34,591 nucleotides of DNA from an uncultured Mycoplasmatota bacterium (GTDB taxonomy: Bacteria > Bacillota_I > Bacilli_A > RF39 > UBA660). A program made the translations under genes and the position numbers. Of this stretch, positions 1-8,600 are shown in pieces (positions within the stretch are counted from its first letter, which is position 1; each line of letters opens with the position of its first letter). Where the stretch lies: contig CAMMOI010000009.1 of the NCBI GenBank assembly GCA_946498375.1, positions 1-34,591 on the forward strand. The letters run 5' to 3'. The notes below the pieces were generated by a model that was given only the letters and a program-made list of their open reading frames with translations, searched no databases and was not told where the DNA came from.

Positions 1-307
1 AATTATTTATTACATCAATCATTGTTAAACCATATGTTACAGGAAGAGTTCCTGTTTTTTTTACTGTAAATTTTGTTTGAATTGTTGCTCCAGGATATAA
101 ATTATCTGCTCCTACTAAAGTCGTGCCATCTAATACTAAAGACATTGTTCCGGTATTTACATTAACACCTTTTGCTGTATCATTACCAATTACCGTGGCT
201 GTAAAATAAGCATAAGAAATACTACTTATTATAATTAAGACTAATACGCACAAACTTATAACAACTATTTTAGAATTCCACACTAACCTATTATTTTTTA
301 TTTTCAT
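1..307 (-). CDS. SipW-type signal-anchored TasA/camelysin-like surface protein (5' part only)
   Basis: This is the first 102 codons of a gene whose remainder lies beyond the left edge. The ATG at 307-305 follows an AGAGGAG ribosome site about 9 bases upstream. The product has a short basic N-terminus (MKIKNNR), one hydrophobic segment (about residues 12-32) and the motif SYAYFTA just after it. In TasA/camelysin-class proteins exported with SipW-type signal peptidases, an AYF-type motif sits at this place. The following residues, with VNVNTGTMSLVL and later KKTGTLPVTYGL, look like the start of the TasA-like beta domain. A related layout occurs in the C-terminal head of the neighbouring repeat protein. 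The likely location is the cell surface or a matrix fibre. Family assignment rests on motif resemblance, and the missing C-terminus limits confidence. Its promoter contains a G8 tract, described separately. Confidence 0.75.
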   Translation of the reverse strand, partial: MKIKNNRLVWNSKIVVISLCVLVLIIISSISYAYFTATVIGNDTAKGVNVNTGTMSLVLDGTTLVGADNLYPGATIQTKFTVKKTGTLPVTYGLTMIDVINN

Positions 308-337
308 AAACAAACTCCTCTACTTTACGCTGTCTTT

Positions 338-364: not shown

Positions 365-390
365 ACAAAAAACTTGCGTTTACGCAAGTT
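365..390 (-). terminator. Intrinsic terminator of the four-gene operon
   Basis: An 8-bp perfect stem (AACTTGCG with CGCAAGTT) and a 4-base loop lie at 371-390, followed on the minus strand by TTTTGTTT. It ends the operon whose last gene stops at 399. It lies immediately upstream of, and slightly overlaps the approach to, the G8 promoter, so the two units are insulated from each other. Confidence 0.8.
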
Positions 391-398
391 TTACATTT

Positions 399-1673
399 CT
401 AATCATCATATTCGGCATTTACTATTGCACTAAATGTACGCCCCTGATCAATATTTTGCTCTGTATAAGTACCCTCAAATCTAAATGACAAAGTATATGT
501 TTGAGTAACTTTTGGGGGAATAGTAATATAAGTGGCAATAACTTCATCGGTTTTTGGTACAGTAGCATAATCAGTAGTGATTCCTCCATTGGTACCAGTT
601 AATCTAAATTTAAGATTTCCTGTTTCAAAATCATTGGAATAAATTTTCCATACCAAACGATAAATAATTGGATAACTTGAAGTATTTTCAATAGTAAATG
701 TTTTATCAGGAATTGGGGCTGAATAACTCATATCATTTGGCAAATAACTATAACCAGATAAATTATCGCTACTATAAGTAATAACTAATCCTCCTGTTAA
801 GATATCTACATTAGGATTGCCCGTAATTGTAGTCGTACCACTTTGTTTTATAGAATCAAGTGTAGTTCCTATACAATATTCATCACATATTAAATCGCCA
901 TTTGTATCACACATTAAATTACAAGTTCCATCACCATTAGTATCTAAATTTAAATCAGCAATTCCATCTCCATCTGTATCAATATCCATATCGGCAATAC
1001 CATCACCGTCTAAATCAATATTCAAATCTGGCCAACCATCGCCATTTGTATCACAATTTAAACTACAAACTTTTCCATCAGTAGCATCATTTACTAGATT
1101 ATAATCAGCAATACCATCATTATCAGTATCTATATTAAAAACTGCTTTTCTATTACCCTTATAATCAATATTTAAATCAGGCTTATCATCTTTATTTGTA
1201 TCAATATTTATCTCAGCTTTGCCATCGTTATTTAAATCTAAATTAATATCAGGAATTCCATCACCATCAATATCTTTATTTAAATCAGCTCTACTTAAAT
1301 AAAATACTGCCCAATATGTTGCAGCCAACACACCTAATATAAAAGCTACAATATAAATTCCTAACAAAAAAGCATTTAATCTTCTTTTTTTTCTAAAACG
1401 AAAAGTAATATCGCCTTTCTTTTTTTCTACAGCTAAATTTTTTGCTAGATAAATAACTTCATCTTTAGGAGAACAAGAAAGTTCAATACAACTTATAATC
1501 CAATCTTTAGAAATTTTTGTTTCTTTGGCATAAGCTTTTCCTAATACTTCTTTTAATATAGAAAATTGTTCATTTACTGGTTTTTCTGTAAAGTCTTTTA
1601 AAGAGAGTTTTTCTTCCTTAAAATTTTTATTGATTTGAACATCTTTTTCTGTGTCTTCAATCTTTTTTTTCAA
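399..1673 (-). CDS. Single-pass membrane protein with calcium-type (TSP3-like) repeats and a TasA-like C-terminal domain
   Basis: The 424-aa protein is made of distinct parts. Residues 1-98 are charged and probably cytoplasmic. One membrane segment follows a basic cluster (FRFRKKRR) at about 101-126. Residues 132-267 hold about eleven tandem 12-residue units of the type IDTDGDGIADLN, matching the Asp-rich calcium-binding loops of thrombospondin type 3 or dockerin-like repeats. Cysteines at 203, 207, 251, 255, 263 and 267 could form disulfides. Residues 280-424 form a beta-rich head with phrases such as NVDILTGGLVITY and TIENTSSYPIIYRLVW, resembling the TasA-like protein at 1-307. The start is TTG, chosen because AGAGGTGAT lies five bases upstream. 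It is the last gene of the four-gene operon, and the gap to the preceding gene is 18 bases. The function is unknown; a stalk displaying a surface head is inferred. The arrangement appears unusual. Confidence 0.75.
   Translation of the reverse strand: MKKKIEDTEKDVQINKNFKEEKLSLKDFTEKPVNEQFSILKEVLGKAYAKETKISKDWIISCIELSCSPKDEVIYLAKNLAVEKKKGDITFRFRKKRRLNAFLLGIYIVAFILGVLAATYWAVFYLSRADLNKDIDGDGIPDINLDLNNDGKAEINIDTNKDDKPDLNIDYKGNRKAVFNIDTDNDGIADYNLVNDATDGKVCSLNCDTNGDGWPDLNIDLDGDGIADMDIDTDGDGIADLNLDTNGDGTCNLMCDTNGDLICDEYCIGTTLDSIKQSGTTTITGNPNVDILTGGLVITYSSDNLSGYSYLPNDMSYSAPIPDKTFTIENTSSYPIIYRLVWKIYSNDFETGNLKFRLTGTNGGITTDYATVPKTDEVIATYITIPPKVTQTYTLSFRFEGTYTEQNIDQGRTFSAIVNAEYDD
873..1280 (-). repeat. 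Degenerate 36-bp tandem repeat encoding 12-residue calcium-loop units
   Basis: About eleven in-frame units of 36 bp encode DxDxDGxxDxN-type loops. The best conserved are at residues 206-266, with GATGGTGATGG-like cores. Several upstream units have lost acidic residues (for example the one reading YKGNRKAVFN), so the array is diverged. Such repeats can expand or contract by recombination, which would change stalk length. Confidence 0.8.
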
Positions 1674-1691
1674 AGAATATCACCTCTTTTT

Positions 1692-2789
1692 CTATTTTAA
1701 ACTATAAAATATTTTACCAATTTGAACTTCACAATTTTTTATAAATTCATCACAACGTTTATAAATTAAACTACCAACTTTAGCTTCTTGCCTACGTATA
1801 TTTTCAAAATTAGCTGTTATTTGTTTTTTAAAATCATCAATATCAATTGCACTTTCTAATGCATATTCTCTAGTTAATTTATTTATTTCTTTTAATTTTT
1901 CATCTAATGTATCTTTTTTTGGCGTTTTAGAAGATAAATTACTATAATCTAAAAAGTATGTTACTAAAAATTTGTTTTTTAATGCATCATCTGAAGAACT
2001 TTCAGTTGTTGACTCTTGTTTTACAAAATCATAGTTTTCTATTGCATCTAAATATTCCCACAATTTAACAGCTTGTTGAAAGTTAGTTTCTTTTAATATT
2101 AAGTTGGTTTTTCTAATAGGCGATGTTACCTCTGCTACTTGAGAAAGCCCTTTTACAAAATTAGTTGTTAAAAAACCATTTACTAAAACTGTCATATCAT
2201 AAATACGTTTATTTATATCATTAATATTTTTAGAAACATTATACTCTTTTTGAGACTTAGTTTTTTCTAGTGTAAGATTTATATTAACTTTTTCTTTGTC
2301 TATTTTTGTTTGTCCAGTATAATTAACTTTTTTATTTATTTTACAAGTACCAGCATACTGACTATTTTGAGCTTTTTGTTCTAAAAAAGAATATAATCTT
2401 TTAATTAATGTATAAATAAATCTATTTTCATATATATCAAAAGTTTCTTCTCTATTAATATTTAGCAATTTCTTAGGCTGAACCATTCCCTCTTCATCTA
2501 TACTTTGAATTAAAGAAGCATGCTGAGCTAAGTGCTTAACTGTTTCTTCATTAATTCTTTTTGTTTTTTCGACTAATAAAACTTCTTCTTCTGGAATTAT
2601 AAATCTTCGAGGATTTCGAATAATATTATCCAAATATGGCAATTGTTTTTCTATAAAATCTACCCATGAATAATCAAATACTTGTTTAGTTGTTGTTGTT
2701 GTAATAGTTAAAGCATTTTTAGTCTGCTCTTTAAAATTAGTAAACTTTTCTTCATTAAAATCCTTAATAAATTCTAAATCATTTTGCAT
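1692..2789 (-). CDS. DUF2357-like protein, partner of the adjacent McrB-like ATPase; no nuclease motif seen
   Basis: This 365-aa soluble protein carries landmarks I associate with DUF2357: a NPRRFI segment (about residues 58-63), EKTKRINEETVKHLAQH, the block TFDIYENRFIYTLIKRLYSF (about 134-153) and SPIRKTNLILKETNFQQAVKLW (about 222-243) given here in part only as the SPIRKTNL and FQQAVKLW words. DUF2357 proteins are usually encoded beside McrB-like AAA+ GTPases/ATPases and often end in a PD-(D/E)XK nuclease. No convincing D-x(n)-ExK motif is visible here and the protein stops early. An upstream GTG at 2798 overlaps the ATPase stop codon. I prefer the ATG at 2789 because AGGTGAT sits four bases before it. 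The overlap implies translational coupling with the ATPase. The family call is from recalled motif patterns only. Confidence 0.6.
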   Translation of the reverse strand: MQNDLEFIKDFNEEKFTNFKEQTKNALTITTTTTKQVFDYSWVDFIEKQLPYLDNIIRNPRRFIIPEEEVLLVEKTKRINEETVKHLAQHASLIQSIDEEGMVQPKKLLNINREETFDIYENRFIYTLIKRLYSFLEQKAQNSQYAGTCKINKKVNYTGQTKIDKEKVNINLTLEKTKSQKEYNVSKNINDINKRIYDMTVLVNGFLTTNFVKGLSQVAEVTSPIRKTNLILKETNFQQAVKLWEYLDAIENYDFVKQESTTESSSDDALKNKFLVTYFLDYSNLSSKTPKKDTLDEKLKEINKLTREYALESAIDIDDFKKQITANFENIRRQEAKVGSLIYKRCDEFIKNCEVQIGKIFYSLK

Positions 2790-2794
2790 TTTTA

Positions 2795-4303
2795 TCACCT
2801 ATATTGTTTTTTTAATAATTCTAAATAATCAATACACTCACTCATAGCATTTTTACCAAATAATTTATTAAGATATTCAATTAATCCATCTATCTCATGT
2901 TTAATTAAAGAAAAGTTAAGCTGTTCTAATTTTCTTAAAATTTTATGAGCTATAATATAATCAATAGCCTCTACATCTGTTCCTCCACAAGCTACGTAAA
3001 CAGGGGTAAAATCAGTAATCTGCTTCATTATACGATTACCAAATGAAATACGAATATGCGAAATAATATAATGATCTAAATTATTAATTTTTTCTATCAT
3101 TTCAGAACTTAGAGGGTTTGTTTTTTGAGCAGTTTCAAATAGTGTTTCTAAATATTTTGCTGTAATTTTATAATTTGATGTTTTAGGGGCATCAAATGGA
3201 AGACACTTATCATTAATTGAAATAGGCATTGCTCTATCATAAACTTTATCTGTTACTGAGAATGTTGAATCATCATTATTTATTGTACCAACATACCACA
3301 TGTTCTCTGGTATAACAATTTTACCATTATCTAGTAGTTTTGGATCATTATCCCAAGCATTAGGAACTAATTCAATAATCCATTCATCTTTACTAGGCAA
3401 TTCCAAAACTGACAACATTTCCGCAAAATAATATTCTACACGAGCTATATTCATTTCATCTAAGATTGTAATAAATATATCATCTTTATATTTTGCTTCG
3501 TACATGCTACTTAAGACTTCAGTTTCATTAAATTTTTTGGTAAATTCATTGAAATAACCAAAAAGTTCTGAAGTATCACGCCATGATGGTTGAACTGAAG
3601 CTATTGTAGCATCATTTTTTACCATTTTACCAAGTGCATGGGCCAAAGATGTTTTTCCGGTTCCAGAGATACCTTCTAGGATAATTAACTTATTTGAAGC
3701 AAAAGCTGAAATAAATAATCTAATCATTTTATCAGTATAATATAGTTTTAATTCAGATGCTGAGTAATTTCTAAAATCATTACAAAATTGACTTAAACTA
3801 ACGGTATCATTTGCCGGAGTTTGTTCATAGTTTTCCATTAACTGATCAATTTTAGTTAATTTAAAGAAACGACTTTCGCCTTCTTTTAATTTATTTATAA
3901 CATTACCATTTTCATCATACTCTACTTCATCTTCGGCTGTGGCCATAGCCATTAGTTTTTCATTTGTCGCTTTTAATTTATAAACTTGCGAATTCAACTT
4001 ATCAATTTCATCAGTCAATGCCTCTTCACGATGTAAATTTTTACGAAATTTAATAATTCTTCTAACTAACCAGATAATTAATATAATAAGTAAAGCAAAT
4101 AGCCCAAAAATACATAATATACTAATTATTAAAATAAATATTCCAAACCCCGATAAACTATCACTATATTCATTAATTACATCAACGTAATTAAGTAAAT
4201 TTAGCATTTTCCAAATTCCCTGGATTATTCCTTTAAATATTGTTGTAATTCCATTAAAAAATGGTGCCATAAAATCCAAGAAAAAATTCCCATAATTACT
4301 CAT
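2795..4303 (-). CDS. Membrane-anchored McrB-like AAA+ ATPase
   Basis: This 502-aa protein begins with a hydrophobic/amphipathic region (residues 10-38) and a strong membrane segment (52-80), followed by RRIIKFRK, which favours a cytoplasmic C-terminus. A predicted coiled coil covers about 88-122. The AAA+ core has Walker A GISGTGKTS (211-219), Walker B ITILDEMN (278-285) continuing into ARVEYYFAEML, a sensor segment GTINNDDSTF (339-348) and DKVYDRAM (352-359). The DEMN-ARVEYYF and DDSTF-TDKVYDRA words are typical of the McrB-like branch that works with McrC or DUF2357 partners. Ordinary McrB proteins are soluble with an N-terminal DNA-binding domain; here membrane helices take that place. ATG at 4303 has GGAGG eight bases upstream. 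It is second in a four-gene operon, 16 bases after its upstream neighbour. The substrate is unknown. Confidence 0.85.
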   Translation of the reverse strand: MSNYGNFFLDFMAPFFNGITTIFKGIIQGIWKMLNLLNYVDVINEYSDSLSGFGIFILIISILCIFGLFALLIILIIWLVRRIIKFRKNLHREEALTDEIDKLNSQVYKLKATNEKLMAMATAEDEVEYDENGNVINKLKEGESRFFKLTKIDQLMENYEQTPANDTVSLSQFCNDFRNYSASELKLYYTDKMIRLFISAFASNKLIILEGISGTGKTSLAHALGKMVKNDATIASVQPSWRDTSELFGYFNEFTKKFNETEVLSSMYEAKYKDDIFITILDEMNIARVEYYFAEMLSVLELPSKDEWIIELVPNAWDNDPKLLDNGKIVIPENMWYVGTINNDDSTFSVTDKVYDRAMPISINDKCLPFDAPKTSNYKITAKYLETLFETAQKTNPLSSEMIEKINNLDHYIISHIRISFGNRIMKQITDFTPVYVACGGTDVEAIDYIIAHKILRKLEQLNFSLIKHEIDGLIEYLNKLFGKNAMSECIDYLELLKKQYR

Positions 4304-4319
4304 ATTTTTTCCTCCATAC

Positions 4320-5360
4320 TTAATTTAATAATTCTTGCTCAGTAAATGTCTTATCAAAGCACTTAGTAATTGCAATTATTTGATTATTATCAAAATACTC
4401 TTTCATTGTTGGAAATAAAGTTAGATAATTTTGATCTATTAATACCATTTCCTCAGCATTAACTTCTACTTTATTAGAAACTTTTTCTAAATCTAAAAAA
4501 TAATTAAACCCCTGATCTTTTAATAATTCTAATTTTTTAAAATTTTTTTGATAAGTAGTATAATCTACCATAAATATTACACTATCTTTAAAATTGAAAA
4601 ATTTTTTTTCTAAATCTTTGATGCGTTTTGAAGTTTTCAATAAATATTGGTTGATTGGAACAATAAATTTATATGTATTATGTTTTAAAAGCAACTGCTT
4701 TAATAAAAAATTACTTAGTATGTGGTTTGATAAGTTTAAAAAACGATATTGCAATTCTTCATTTTGAATTGCCTTTTGTACTTGAGCTGGATAAAAATTA
4801 TCTAGTTCTTTTATATCAAATTCAAATTTTACTAAATAAGTATCTTTTATGTAAGGGGTTTTAATATACATATTTTTAATATTTTCTAAATTAGATAACG
4901 AATTAATAAAACGACTTTCCTTTAAATAATTATGTTTTATTGCTCTAGTTAAATTGTCTACTTTTTCTTTATTTTTTTTACTATTGCTATTAATATTAAG
5001 AAGGCTTAAAATTTTTGCCACTTGCTCTTTTAAGGTATCTAAATCAACATTAGTATTTTTTGCTGGATTTAATATTTTATCAATTTCAATTGTAAGATGA
5101 ACTATAGATGCTGCATTTCTAAGCGAATTATCATTATCATTATTTATTATTGTATTAATAATTTTAAAAGTACTATCACTAGAAAAATATAAATTTTTAG
5201 TATATTGTTCAATTATATTTTTGGTAGTGGTTAAATAATATTTTTTTTGTTCCCGAGTTATTTTTTCCTCATTAATTAAAAGCTGGATTATTGTCTTCGC
5301 ATAATCACTTAATACTTTATTTTTATTTTGCAAAAATAAATCAAAAGCACTCTCATTCAT
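4320..5360 (-). CDS. Unknown 346-aa, largely helical protein, first gene of the McrB-like operon
   Basis: I do not recognise this protein. It has no signal peptide or membrane segment. The N-terminal half (to about residue 170) is Lys/Asn/Ile-rich and looks helical. The C-terminal half has alternating hydrophobic stretches suggesting an alpha/beta fold, for example DSVIFMVDYTTYQKN, then GFNYFLDLE and EMVLIDQNYL. That pattern faintly recalls the ends of EAL-type folds but lacks the catalytic motifs, so no such function is claimed. The ATG at 5360 is preferred over an upstream TTG (5369), because AAGGTAGG precedes it at plausible distance. It directly follows the operon promoter and lies 16 bases before the AAA+ gene, so it is probably a component or regulator of the same system. 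Confidence 0.7.
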   Translation of the reverse strand: MNESAFDLFLQNKNKVLSDYAKTIIQLLINEEKITREQKKYYLTTTKNIIEQYTKNLYFSSDSTFKIINTIINNDNDNSLRNAASIVHLTIEIDKILNPAKNTNVDLDTLKEQVAKILSLLNINSNSKKNKEKVDNLTRAIKHNYLKESRFINSLSNLENIKNMYIKTPYIKDTYLVKFEFDIKELDNFYPAQVQKAIQNEELQYRFLNLSNHILSNFLLKQLLLKHNTYKFIVPINQYLLKTSKRIKDLEKKFFNFKDSVIFMVDYTTYQKNFKKLELLKDQGFNYFLDLEKVSNKVEVNAEEMVLIDQNYLTLFPTMKEYFDNNQIIAITKCFDKTFTEQELLN

Positions 5361-5389
5361 ACAAACCAACCTACCTTACACTACTATAA

Positions 5390-5418
5390 AGTATAGCAAA
5401 TATATTTTATATTTGCAA
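5390..5418 (-). promoter_or_regulatory. Operon promoter with a perfect palindromic operator filling the spacer
   Basis: On the minus strand -35 TTGCAA (5418-5413) and -10 TATACT (5395-5390) are 17 bases apart. A perfect inverted repeat, GCAAATATA - 3 bases - TATATTTGC (5396-5416), fills the whole spacer. Such a site would suit a dimeric repressor blocking RNA polymerase. I do not recognise the regulator family; it is not a CIRCE, Fur/PerR or LexA box. Confidence 0.7.
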
Positions 5419-5463: not shown

Positions 5464-5488
5464 AAAAAAACTAGTGATTAAACACTAG
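5464..5488 (-). terminator. Terminator of the SNF2 helicase gene
   Basis: The stem CTAGTG/CACTAG (5471-5476, 5483-5488) with a 6-base loop is followed on the minus strand by seven T (5470-5464). The stop codon of the helicase gene (5480-5478) lies in the loop. It separates the helicase unit from the McrB-like operon. Confidence 0.8.
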
Positions 5489-8400
5489 AATTTTCAAACT
5501 TAAGTAAGTTACGAATATCTTTTTCAGTTAGATGAGCTAAAATTTCACTATTTTCATTTTTCTCAATTAATGTATCACTTAAAGTTTTCTTCTTTTTTTG
5601 TAAATCTAATATTTTTTCTTCAATTGTTCCTGTAGAAATTAATTTTATAACTTCAACATTGTTTTTTTGACCAATCCGATGTGCTCTATCTGTTGCTTGG
5701 TTCTCTGCTTGAGGATTCCACCATAAATCTAGATGGATAACAACATCAGCACTAGTTAAGTTAAGTCCTGTCCCTCCACTTTTTAGAGTAATCAAAAACA
5801 CTTGTGTTAAATCAGTATTAAATTTATCAACCAATTCTTGACGTCTTTTAGAACTAATAGTACCGTCTATTTGATAATAAGTTATATTATTATTATCTAA
5901 TTGTTTACTAACAATATCTAAGGCTGATTTAAAGCTTGTAAAAATCAATATTTTATGATTGTTATCGATTAATTCCTTAATTATTTTAATTAAATTTTCA
6001 ACTTTAGAACTTTTTCCTTTATAATTTTCAAATACTAATTTTGGATCTATACATAATTGTCTAAGTTTAGTTAAAAGCTGTAAAATCATTAATTTAGATT
6101 TAGAAAATCCTTCACTCATAATTAACTGATCCATTTGTTCCTCTACTCTTTTAATTTCAGCAGCATACAACCTTTTCTGTTCTTTATCTAAATCAATAAA
6201 TATATTATTTTCAATTTTTTTTGGCAATTCTTTCAAAACATCTTTTTTCTTACGACGTAATATAAAAGGAGAAATTATTCGATTTAAATTAGATAGCATA
6301 ACAGAGGATTTTTCATCTATTTGCTTAAATTTATATTTACGATTAAATTTAGTTAAAGTTGATAAAAAACCAGGCATAATAAAATCAAATATGCTCCACA
6401 ACTCCTCTACTGAGTTTTCAATTGGCGTACCTGTTAAGGCAATTTTTGTCTTTGCATTAATCTTTTTTACTACTTTTGTATTTTTAGCAAGAGGATTTTT
6501 AATATTTTGGGCTTCATCTATTACACATATTTTAAAGTTTTTATCCTGATAATTTTCACTATCTTCTCTTAATGTTCCATAAGATGTTATATAAACACTT
6601 ACTTTTTCATGTTCAATTAAGTTTTTTCTTTTTTGTTTTTCCCCTACAAATATTCCAACTTGAATATCCGGAGCAAATTTTTTAAATTCATTTAACCAAT
6701 TATAAACTAGTGCTGTAGGACAAACTATTATAAATTTTGCTTGAGGATCCTCATTAAGTAAATGTTTAAAAAAATAAATAGTTTGAATAGACTTACCCAA
6801 GCCCATTTCATCGGCTAAAATTCCGCCTAAATCACATTTATGAATATTATAAAGCCACTGCACTCCTTCTTGTTGATAATTTCGCAATAACTTTTTTTCC
6901 TGCTCATTAAAAGTTATTTTAGCATCTTTATATTTTTGAAATTTTTCAATAAAATTAGTAAACATATCATCTGTTTTAATAATGTTATATTTTTCGGATT
7001 TTAAACTCTCTAAATATAAAGCCTTATATTTAGGAATAGAGCCACTTTCTTTTTCAAAACTTATATCTAAATCATCTACTAAATTAGCTAGTTGATTAAG
7101 TGATTCATCTTCCAGGGATAAAATATCTCCATTTTTTAATTTATGATATTTTTTCTTTTCTTTTAATGAACTAAATACATTTGATAATTCTTTATAATCT
7201 ATTCCATCAAGATTAAAGTTATAATTTAGAATATTATCCTTTCCAATTGAAAAGGTACTAGATATTCTTAATTTTTTTCGAATGTCTGTATTCTTAATTT
7301 TTTCTGATGTAAATACTTTATATAAACTAGCTAATTGCGTAATTTCTTTTTCTAGAAAATCTACAATATCATTAATTTCATTTAATATTATCTTCCTTTT
7401 AATTATTTTAAATTTATATTTTAACAATTCATTAATCACTTGATTTTCATATTCGGTATCTTTAAATACTTTAGTACTTTTATCAAAATATCCTACTTTA
7501 TCATTCCCATAAATAAAAACAGGATTACAAACAACATAATCTTGATTTATATCAAAATATAATTCTACTTCCGGTTTAGAAATAATTTTTAAATCTTCTA
7601 ATTCTTGGCTTAATGTCAACTCATTTTTTACAATCGGCAATATGCCTTTAGAAAATGAATCAAAATCTTCATCTTTAAAAACTAAAGTATCTAACTGTTC
7701 TTCTTGCATTAATTTTATAAATTTTCTAATTTTAGGTTCTAAATGATAAATTTTATTTTCATAAAATATATATTCTAAATTATTAGTAAGAGGAATAAAA
7801 TTTTTATCAAAATCTATATTTAAATAATATTTATCTGCTTCTTTAGATAAGTTTATTAAAATGGGACTACTATTTAAAATTCCACTGAATTTTCCTAAGT
7901 TTTCTATTAAAAAAACTTTATTACTTAAAAGATGCATTAATTTTATAAAATCATTACTTTCAATATAAATAGAAGAATTATGATATTCAGCATTAGTGTA
8001 TAAAAAATTTAATATTCGACTATCATCTTCAGCAAAATAGTAATCTGATGGATCATATGTAAAATTTTTTCCAAATTGTACACGACCATTTTCATCATGG
8101 TATGCCGCTATAAACTTATTATATTTAGATCCAATACTATATAATTTATCAGTACCAATTTTTAATTTAATTGTATAATCTAAACCCCAATAAGTATTTC
8201 TTAAAACTAGTAAATATTCGACATTTAACTTTTTTTTAGTTATTCCAGAATGATTGGTTTGGGAAAATGATTTAAGTATTTCTCGAGATTTTAGAATTAT
8301 ATAATCATCACTAGATTCTGGCAATAAATAATTAGCATAATTAATTACTGCAGCAGCAATATGAAAACAAGAATTATGCTTTTGAAAATCTATACAAGAA

Positions 8401-8600
8401 CAATCTACGCTTTTAATATTTTGATTTTCTACTACTATACTAACAAATACTTTTTCCTTAGTAAAAATAAATTGATGACGTAAAGAATTAGAAAAGTTTG
8501 AATTTCCTACATAAACAATTTTGTCTTTATATGTATAGGCTTGATTTATATCATAAGTATAAACAAACTTTTTTAAATCATTCATTATTTTCTTTTCCAT
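5478..8600 (-). CDS. SNF2-family helicase with N-terminal SWIM zinc finger
   Basis: This 1040-aa protein is a full-length Swi2/Snf2 ATPase of the bacterial HepA/YwqA-like type. A SWIM zinc finger is present at C67-x-C69 ... C78-x-H80. A long SNF2-associated region follows to about 560. The helicase core has LRNYQQEGVQWL (572-583), Walker A DEMGLGKS (597-604), the DEAQ box (695-698), TGTPIEN (723-729), and the helicase C-terminal motifs SGGTGLNLT (941-949) and DRAHRIGQ (971-978). Members translocate on double-stranded DNA and remodel protein-DNA or RNA polymerase complexes; the exact role of this subgroup is poorly known. The start at 8600 has only a weak ribosome site; a second ATG at 8585 is possible. 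It is monocistronic, with its own promoter carrying a LexA-like box and its own terminator. Confidence 0.93.
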   Translation of the reverse strand: MEKKIMNDLKKFVYTYDINQAYTYKDKIVYVGNSNFSNSLRHQFIFTKEKVFVSIVVENQNIKSVDCSCIDFQKHNSCFHIAAAVINYANYLLPESSDDYIILKSREILKSFSQTNHSGITKKKLNVEYLLVLRNTYWGLDYTIKLKIGTDKLYSIGSKYNKFIAAYHDENGRVQFGKNFTYDPSDYYFAEDDSRILNFLYTNAEYHNSSIYIESNDFIKLMHLLSNKVFLIENLGKFSGILNSSPILINLSKEADKYYLNIDFDKNFIPLTNNLEYIFYENKIYHLEPKIRKFIKLMQEEQLDTLVFKDEDFDSFSKGILPIVKNELTLSQELEDLKIISKPEVELYFDINQDYVVCNPVFIYGNDKVGYFDKSTKVFKDTEYENQVINELLKYKFKIIKRKIILNEINDIVDFLEKEITQLASLYKVFTSEKIKNTDIRKKLRISSTFSIGKDNILNYNFNLDGIDYKELSNVFSSLKEKKKYHKLKNGDILSLEDESLNQLANLVDDLDISFEKESGSIPKYKALYLESLKSEKYNIIKTDDMFTNFIEKFQKYKDAKITFNEQEKKLLRNYQQEGVQWLYNIHKCDLGGILADEMGLGKSIQTIYFFKHLLNEDPQAKFIIVCPTALVYNWLNEFKKFAPDIQVGIFVGEKQKRKNLIEHEKVSVYITSYGTLREDSENYQDKNFKICVIDEAQNIKNPLAKNTKVVKKINAKTKIALTGTPIENSVEELWSIFDFIMPGFLSTLTKFNRKYKFKQIDEKSSVMLSNLNRIISPFILRRKKKDVLKELPKKIENNIFIDLDKEQKRLYAAEIKRVEEQMDQLIMSEGFSKSKLMILQLLTKLRQLCIDPKLVFENYKGKSSKVENLIKIIKELIDNNHKILIFTSFKSALDIVSKQLDNNNITYYQIDGTISSKRRQELVDKFNTDLTQVFLITLKSGGTGLNLTSADVVIHLDLWWNPQAENQATDRAHRIGQKNNVEVIKLISTGTIEEKILDLQKKKKTLSDTLIEKNENSEILAHLTEKDIRNLLKFENSSV

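Follow-up and report, generated by a model that had tools for sequence, protein, structure and literature searches.

What does a nucleoside triphosphatase (NTPase) of the McrB type do when it is anchored in the membrane and encoded beside a surface protein? The question is raised by a four-gene operon, A-B-C-D, on the minus strand of a 34,591-nucleotide stretch, here called the window, from an uncultured Mycoplasmatota bacterium (GTDB lineage Bacteria; Bacillota_I; Bacilli_A; RF39; UBA660; assembly GCA_946498375.1, contig CAMMOI010000009.1). The window forms contig C9 of assembly G000, which comprises 969 kilobases (kb) and is 68% complete; all the evidence is computational. The operon probably encodes a membrane-bound machine, driven by nucleoside triphosphate (NTP), that acts on surface proteins of the TasA/camelysin type, and it would be a divergent member of the CoCoPALM class. 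It spans positions 5418 to 369 and comprises four genes:

4320..5360, minus strand: gene A, with a helical N-terminal domain and a predicted EAL-like C-terminal domain whose catalytic residues are not conserved
2795..4303, minus strand: gene B, 502 amino acids, a membrane-anchored McrB-type AAA+ NTPase with the NxD-clade motif NNDDS
1692..2798, minus strand: gene C, 368 amino acids, a DUF2357 (McrC N-terminal-like) protein without nuclease domain
399..1673, minus strand: gene D, 424 amino acids, a membrane surface protein with a TTG start behind a good ribosome site

An earlier note on this DNA had described four genes on one strand with overlaps or gaps of less than 20 bases, and this layout was recovered, with a gap of 16 bases between A and B, an overlap of 4 bases between B and C and a gap of 18 bases between C and D.

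The motor of the system is encoded by gene B, which matches McrB (NF008457, E=6e-9) and whose best matches in the PDB are also McrB (E about 1e-6). Two of its features are central:

4073..4129, minus strand: transmembrane anchor of B, hydrophobic, residues 59-77
3650..3673, minus strand: Walker A of B, GISGTGKT, residues 211-218, invariant in 38 sequences

The alignment of 38 host-family sequences has a mean column identity of 62%, and the conserved stretches are GISGTGKTS, the Walker B region LDEMN(I/L)(A/S)RVEYYF and GTINNDDS. The motif NNDDS is present in all 38, and N[NKR]DDS in 42 of 49 other homologues, the remaining seven being missed by the pattern used; because of the NNDD motif, B is assigned to the NxD clade (PMC11090510). 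A strongly hydrophobic anchor lies ahead of the AAA+ core in 86 of 86 ATPase homologues from many families. The McrB-type core behind an N-terminal anchor, as first proposed, is thus upheld, together with the identity of the hydrophobic N-terminus as an anchor. Profiles of FtsL and DivIC matched 3 and 2 of 38 homologues of B, weakly (best E 0.013 and 0.018). Two ATPases, at loci L131 and L147, have 614 and 663 residues and contain three to four hydrophobic segments, and beside neither of them was a DUF2357 gene recognised; a second ATPase copy at L066 (G037 C72, 4440-5960) contains an in-frame TGA, being either a broken gene or a sequencing error.

The partner of the motor is gene C, which matches PF09823 (DUF2357) at E=1e-9, in accordance with the DUF2357-like protein overlapping the ATPase gene that had been read from the sequence. 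PF09823 was identified in 38 of 38 homologues of C and a nuclease family in none of them. Beyond DUF2357 the predicted model is helical and ends in a long C-terminal helix; a hidden nuclease in C was considered and rejected, none being found by profile, alignment, model or PDB fold search. Matches of the model to the TolC fold were taken as chance (template modelling (TM) score 0.2). C is longer in Acholeplasma-type genomes, where it carries a charged tail resembling a coiled coil by eye.

The company kept by B and C in other genomes carries most of the argument. An initial scan of contigs gave three close relatives and one distant, and whole-genome searches were then used. B is present in 43 of 145 host-family genomes and 140 of 395 host-class genomes, and in a wider sample of the phylum every B among the matches listed lies in the same class. 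C adjoins B in all 39 host-family loci read in detail, of which nine are of the D type and 30 are others. The D-type operon occurs in eight loci beyond that of the window, and the nine D carriers form one clade of the B tree (support 0.997); since it is repeated in this way, the arrangement is not due to chance. A was found by profile in 8/9 D-type and 30/30 other host-family loci, while in the ninth D-type locus (L041) a gene of similar size stands in its place. SipW-type signal peptidases flank B-C in 30/30 non-D loci of the family, and TasA-like genes are present in all of these. In one sub-clade (10 tree tips, support 1.0) the signal peptidase is fused to A, the fusion matching Peptidase_S24/S26. 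The peptidases have Ser and His in nearly all copies, like those of the ER/SipW type. Signal-peptidase homologues without the catalytic Ser motif stand beside active-looking ones at L162 (3833-4363) and L163 (4736-5356), and are possible pseudo-peptidases.

Outside the host family, SipW-type peptidases were identified at 25 of 37 loci. Three architectures are found there: (i) peptidase-B-C-peptidase, mostly with TasA-like genes, in 25 loci; (ii) B and C preceded by a degenerate GGDEF-EAL protein and, before that, a giant surface-type protein; and (iii) B-C-B tandems with large proteins, one of them with a transglutaminase domain. The block therefore recurs, which the earlier note had asked of it, with nine D-type loci of nine, and B-C plus peptidase in 30/30 of the other family loci and 25/37 outside.

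At L135, L138, L142 and L155 the degenerate GGDEF-EAL protein lies directly before B and is preceded by a protein of more than 2000 residues. In the B-C-B tandems (L156, 7332-8684 and 10490-11926; L129, L150, L152) the AAA+ part is identical in DNA over 1.1 kb between copies, with 99.8% identity over 1 kb in L152. The copies differ in their membrane anchors, yet in each of these loci they are more closely related to one another than to any other copy, a likeness that repeated gene conversion might maintain.

The association with peptidases was also measured against random placement, a simple null, in sampled genomes that are related. Eight single-contig genomes contain 32 SipW-type peptidases between them, and 19 of these fall within 8 kb of B; random placement predicts 0.6 and gave at most 6 in 20,000 simulations. 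EAL domains behave alike in seven of the eight genomes (14 of 38 within 8 kb, 0.8 expected; 9 of 31 against 0.6 when tandem EAL genes are merged). The excess near B is large and repeated.

Gene D is the surface protein of the operon, and four parts were distinguished in it:

1374..1673, minus strand: cytoplasmic N-terminal domain of D, residues 1-100, from sequence and hydropathy
1317..1373, minus strand: transmembrane helix of D, residues 101-119, ending in the ATY-type motif of TasA/camelysin-like precursors
870..1286, minus strand: aspartate-rich Ca-type repeats of D, about 14 of the DxDx type, with paired cysteines
402..848, minus strand: TasA/camelysin-like head of D, from alignment, the link to Peptidase_M73 being transitive

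The helix and the repeats bear out the membrane-spanning protein with a calcium-repeat stalk of the earlier note; its TasA-like head stands by a transitive link. The head can be aligned with camelysin/TasA-like proteins from a sister cluster (L039), two of which match Peptidase_M73 near the cut-off (E=2e-4 and 2e-3); D itself gave no match to this profile, so its membership in the family passes through those proteins. The N-terminal domain is a possible docking part.

Gene A had been left without identity. Its open reading frame covers 4320-5369 (349 amino acids), with the ATG start at 5360, and sequence searches gave no family match, but the predicted fold is EAL-like. An AlphaFold model built from 38 aligned homologues has a predicted local distance difference test score of 85 and a predicted TM score of 0.81, and among the 50 PDB matches listed by Foldseek every one is an EAL-domain protein, the best being 6hq5 (E=2e-5). 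The same region is indicated when the profile of A is compared with those of EAL domains, and A very probably adopts an EAL-like fold. Its homologues have almost no invariant residue over 38 sequences and the positions of the EAL catalytic motif are not conserved; catalysis as a cyclic di-GMP (c-di-GMP) phosphodiesterase is therefore very unlikely, to judge from the alignment.

The CoCoPALM class was named in one paragraph of a 2024 eLife census, where a fuller paper is announced (PMC11090510). According to that paragraph, its members have an NxD-clade McrB NTPase, NxD being usually followed by D or E, which is fused to an FtsB-like transmembrane and coiled-coil domain; they are associated with a signal peptidase family and have a DUF2357 (McrC-type) partner, usually with a coiled coil (PMC11090510). 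By motif, anchor and partner the window system fits this class, sharing the NxD-clade NTPase with N-terminal membrane extension, the DUF2357 partner and, in its relatives, the association with a peptidase. It differs in having the Ca-repeat/TasA-like D where relatives have the peptidase. The main text of the census mentions no EAL partner, TasA-like clients or peptidase fusion (PMC11090510); the present analysis adds to it the partner with an EAL-like fold, the peptidase fused to that partner, the TasA-like partners and the D variant. That paragraph is the only text linking McrB to signal peptidases found in a literature search, which found none linking McrB to TasA.

Other known systems share parts of the arrangement. 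With McrBC, the type IV restriction system of E. coli, it shares the McrB motor core and the partner with the DUF2357 of the McrC N-terminus, whereas the window system has a membrane anchor and NxD instead of NxxD, with no DNA-recognition domain seen and no PD-(D/E)XK nuclease. In CoCoNuT systems the missing McrC nuclease is offset by HEPN or another nuclease of the operon, but no nuclease match was obtained in A, C, D or the scanned cluster genes. The tapA-sipW-tasA operon of Bacillus subtilis shares with the relatives of the window operon a SipW-type peptidase and TasA-like surface proteins. TasA fibres assemble outside the cell by donor-strand exchange, and the description of the Bacillus operon includes no NTPase (PMC9674648), in contrast to the conserved membrane McrB-type NTPase found here beside SipW and TasA-like genes; fibres of this type are described as assembling without a cytoplasmic motor.

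The genes flanking these loci do not point to defence either. The 66 flanking proteins scanned are mostly housekeeping, and a defence island was rejected on this basis; in the scan with a defence library, each family among the matches listed matched one protein, mainly UvrD-helicase families. Ordinary nucleases as neighbours of the ATPase elsewhere would have told against the earlier note, but the neighbours are not nucleases. Because B and C stand constantly beside genes of membrane processing and display, without nucleases or defence genes, the best reading is a motor working on surface proteins from inside. The earlier proposal, in which the McrB-DUF2357 pair has been relocated to the membrane and connected there with a surface structure, is supported by the anchors, the peptidase and TasA-like neighbours and this lack of nucleases.

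In such a machine B would be a hexamer, with its N-terminal helices fastening it to the inner side of the membrane. C, corresponding to the N-terminal part of McrC alone, would sit on the hexamer and stimulate NTP hydrolysis, as McrC does for McrB, the nucleotide being GTP as in McrB or ATP. A would be an EAL-like pseudo-enzyme that tethers the motor to its membrane client, this client being the signal peptidase in relatives (fused to A in some of them) and the cytoplasmic tail of D in the D-type clade. The motor might then pull, unfold, release or order its clients while they are exported or afterwards; in this way D, with its Ca-repeat stalk and TasA-like head, and similar proteins would reach the surface or assemble on it. 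Its action may be assembly, ordering or extraction. If the proposal is true, a restriction motor has been repurposed for building the cell surface, and CoCoPALM systems acquire a function. A bolder version can be put forward as a tentative possibility: an energised surface-assembly system of a new kind in Bacilli, in which a membrane McrB-type motor, a DUF2357 activator and an EAL-like adaptor would drive the export-coupled processing or ordering of TasA-like filaments, with c-di-GMP control in wall-less Acholeplasma that was lost in the host family.

Several observations weigh against the proposed machine. A matches EAL proteins in structure only in part, with a TM of about 0.4 relative to the query, and its profile-profile comparison with the EAL domains of relatives is weak (E 2e-4 to 2e-3, probability 14-43%). 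A signal peptidase is in the cluster at only 2 of 9 D-type loci, D standing instead at the window's locus, and no SipW-type peptidase was found in the window's own assembly (68% complete). A weak signal-peptidase match there (contig C14) was rejected as SipW, as it looks like an ordinary Lys-type peptidase. All ten other genomes with a D-type locus or sharing a genus with one have at least one SipW-type peptidase (G291, G191 and G185 being counted as D-type by genus assumption), and in six of the ten it lies only on a contig other than that of B. Twelve non-family loci, of the two other architectures, lack a signal peptidase and encode other large proteins that are apparently exported; a TasA-like client is therefore not universal. 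Finally, many TasA-like neighbours were so named by iterated profiles and an N-terminal motif, and few reach the PF12389 cut-off.

One of the other explanations is a c-di-GMP switch, in which the EAL-like A would be a nucleotide receptor gating the motor. FimX, a degenerate GGDEF-EAL regulator of the type IV pilus motor, would be the precedent: both have an EAL fold next to the motor of a surface appendage, and FimX structures are among the PDB matches of the A model, but the motor family differs and binding of c-di-GMP by A is doubtful in the host family. The predicted fold agrees with such a switch, as do the clustering of EAL genes with B described above, which comes from Acholeplasma-type genomes, and the degenerate GGDEF-EAL protein placed directly before B at four loci; c-di-GMP control is plausible in those genomes. 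On the other hand A has no invariant residue, the host-family genomes G123 and G083 have A-B-C but no GGDEF protein, and canonical EAL was not found in the four host-family genomes searched. The switch is a rather unlikely explanation of the operon, although compatible with a surface-protein motor as its control, and the host family would then have kept this control in weakened form or not at all. In the window's own assembly a single GGDEF protein was found (L167, 476-2524, contig C15), a membrane protein whose outer part is long and whose motif reads DGTEF instead of GGDEF; its identity as GdpP was rejected on these features.

A quality-control or shedding machine of the surface, in which the NTPase would pull wrongly assembled clients out of the membrane in the manner of Msp1 or FtsH, is unlikely. 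Extraction would suit an AAA+ protein that is anchored by its N-terminus and faces clients whose tails are cytoplasmic, and the motor could serve either purpose; however, no protease domain or gene was found in the cluster, and B shares its operon with its putative clients, as is more usual for machines dedicated to assembly.

A membrane-stationed anti-phage system, in which the McrB-DUF2357 pair would use the surface protein to detect adsorption or injection by a phage and would then set off an effector, is improbable: McrB-DUF2357 relatives are restriction systems, the PADLOC candidate PDC-M26A matches B at 1e-39 and the distribution in the host family is patchy, but neither nuclease nor toxin is present in the operon or in C, the flanking proteins are mostly housekeeping, with one protein for each defence-library family among the matches listed, B-C is constantly coupled to signal peptidases and surface proteins, and the distant relative that does lie in a defence-like locus (L034) lacks such coupling and has an 817-residue DUF2357 partner. 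Among the three functions first suggested (defence, contact-sensing and surface assembly), the evidence thus favours surface assembly or processing; a defence function is unlikely and nothing found supports it.

The remaining features of the window concern the signals of the operon and its surroundings:

5390..5418, minus strand: promoter-like site, hexamers TTGCAA and TATACT 17 bases apart, the second preceded by TG
369..392, minus strand: terminator after D, 10-base-pair stem with T tail
2..313, minus strand: camelysin/TasA-type gene (PF12389, E=9e-8), 3' of the terminator and cut by the contig end, a neighbour outside the operon

The promoter proposed at 5390-5418 exists as a site, but such matches are at chance level in the window (39 found, 38.5 expected from shuffles). 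Terminator-like sites are commoner than expected (7 against 1.1), and the single terminator that had been placed after the last gene is one of the seven. Upstream of the operon lie an SNF2 helicase gene (5478-8600), a CotF-like gene and AddA/AddB-like genes; the helicase was rejected as a member of the block, as relatives have other genes at that place. In two D-type loci of related genomes (L037, 2867-6485; L033, 249-3728) a Tad/Flp-type pilus set, formed by a T2SSE ATPase and two membrane proteins, was identified about 520-540 bases upstream of A-B-C-D. The window's own assembly contains at least five scattered camelysin-type genes (window 1-313; contigs C3, C4, C12 and C28), two of them at contig ends, which suggests that repeats of a surface-protein family have broken up the assembly.

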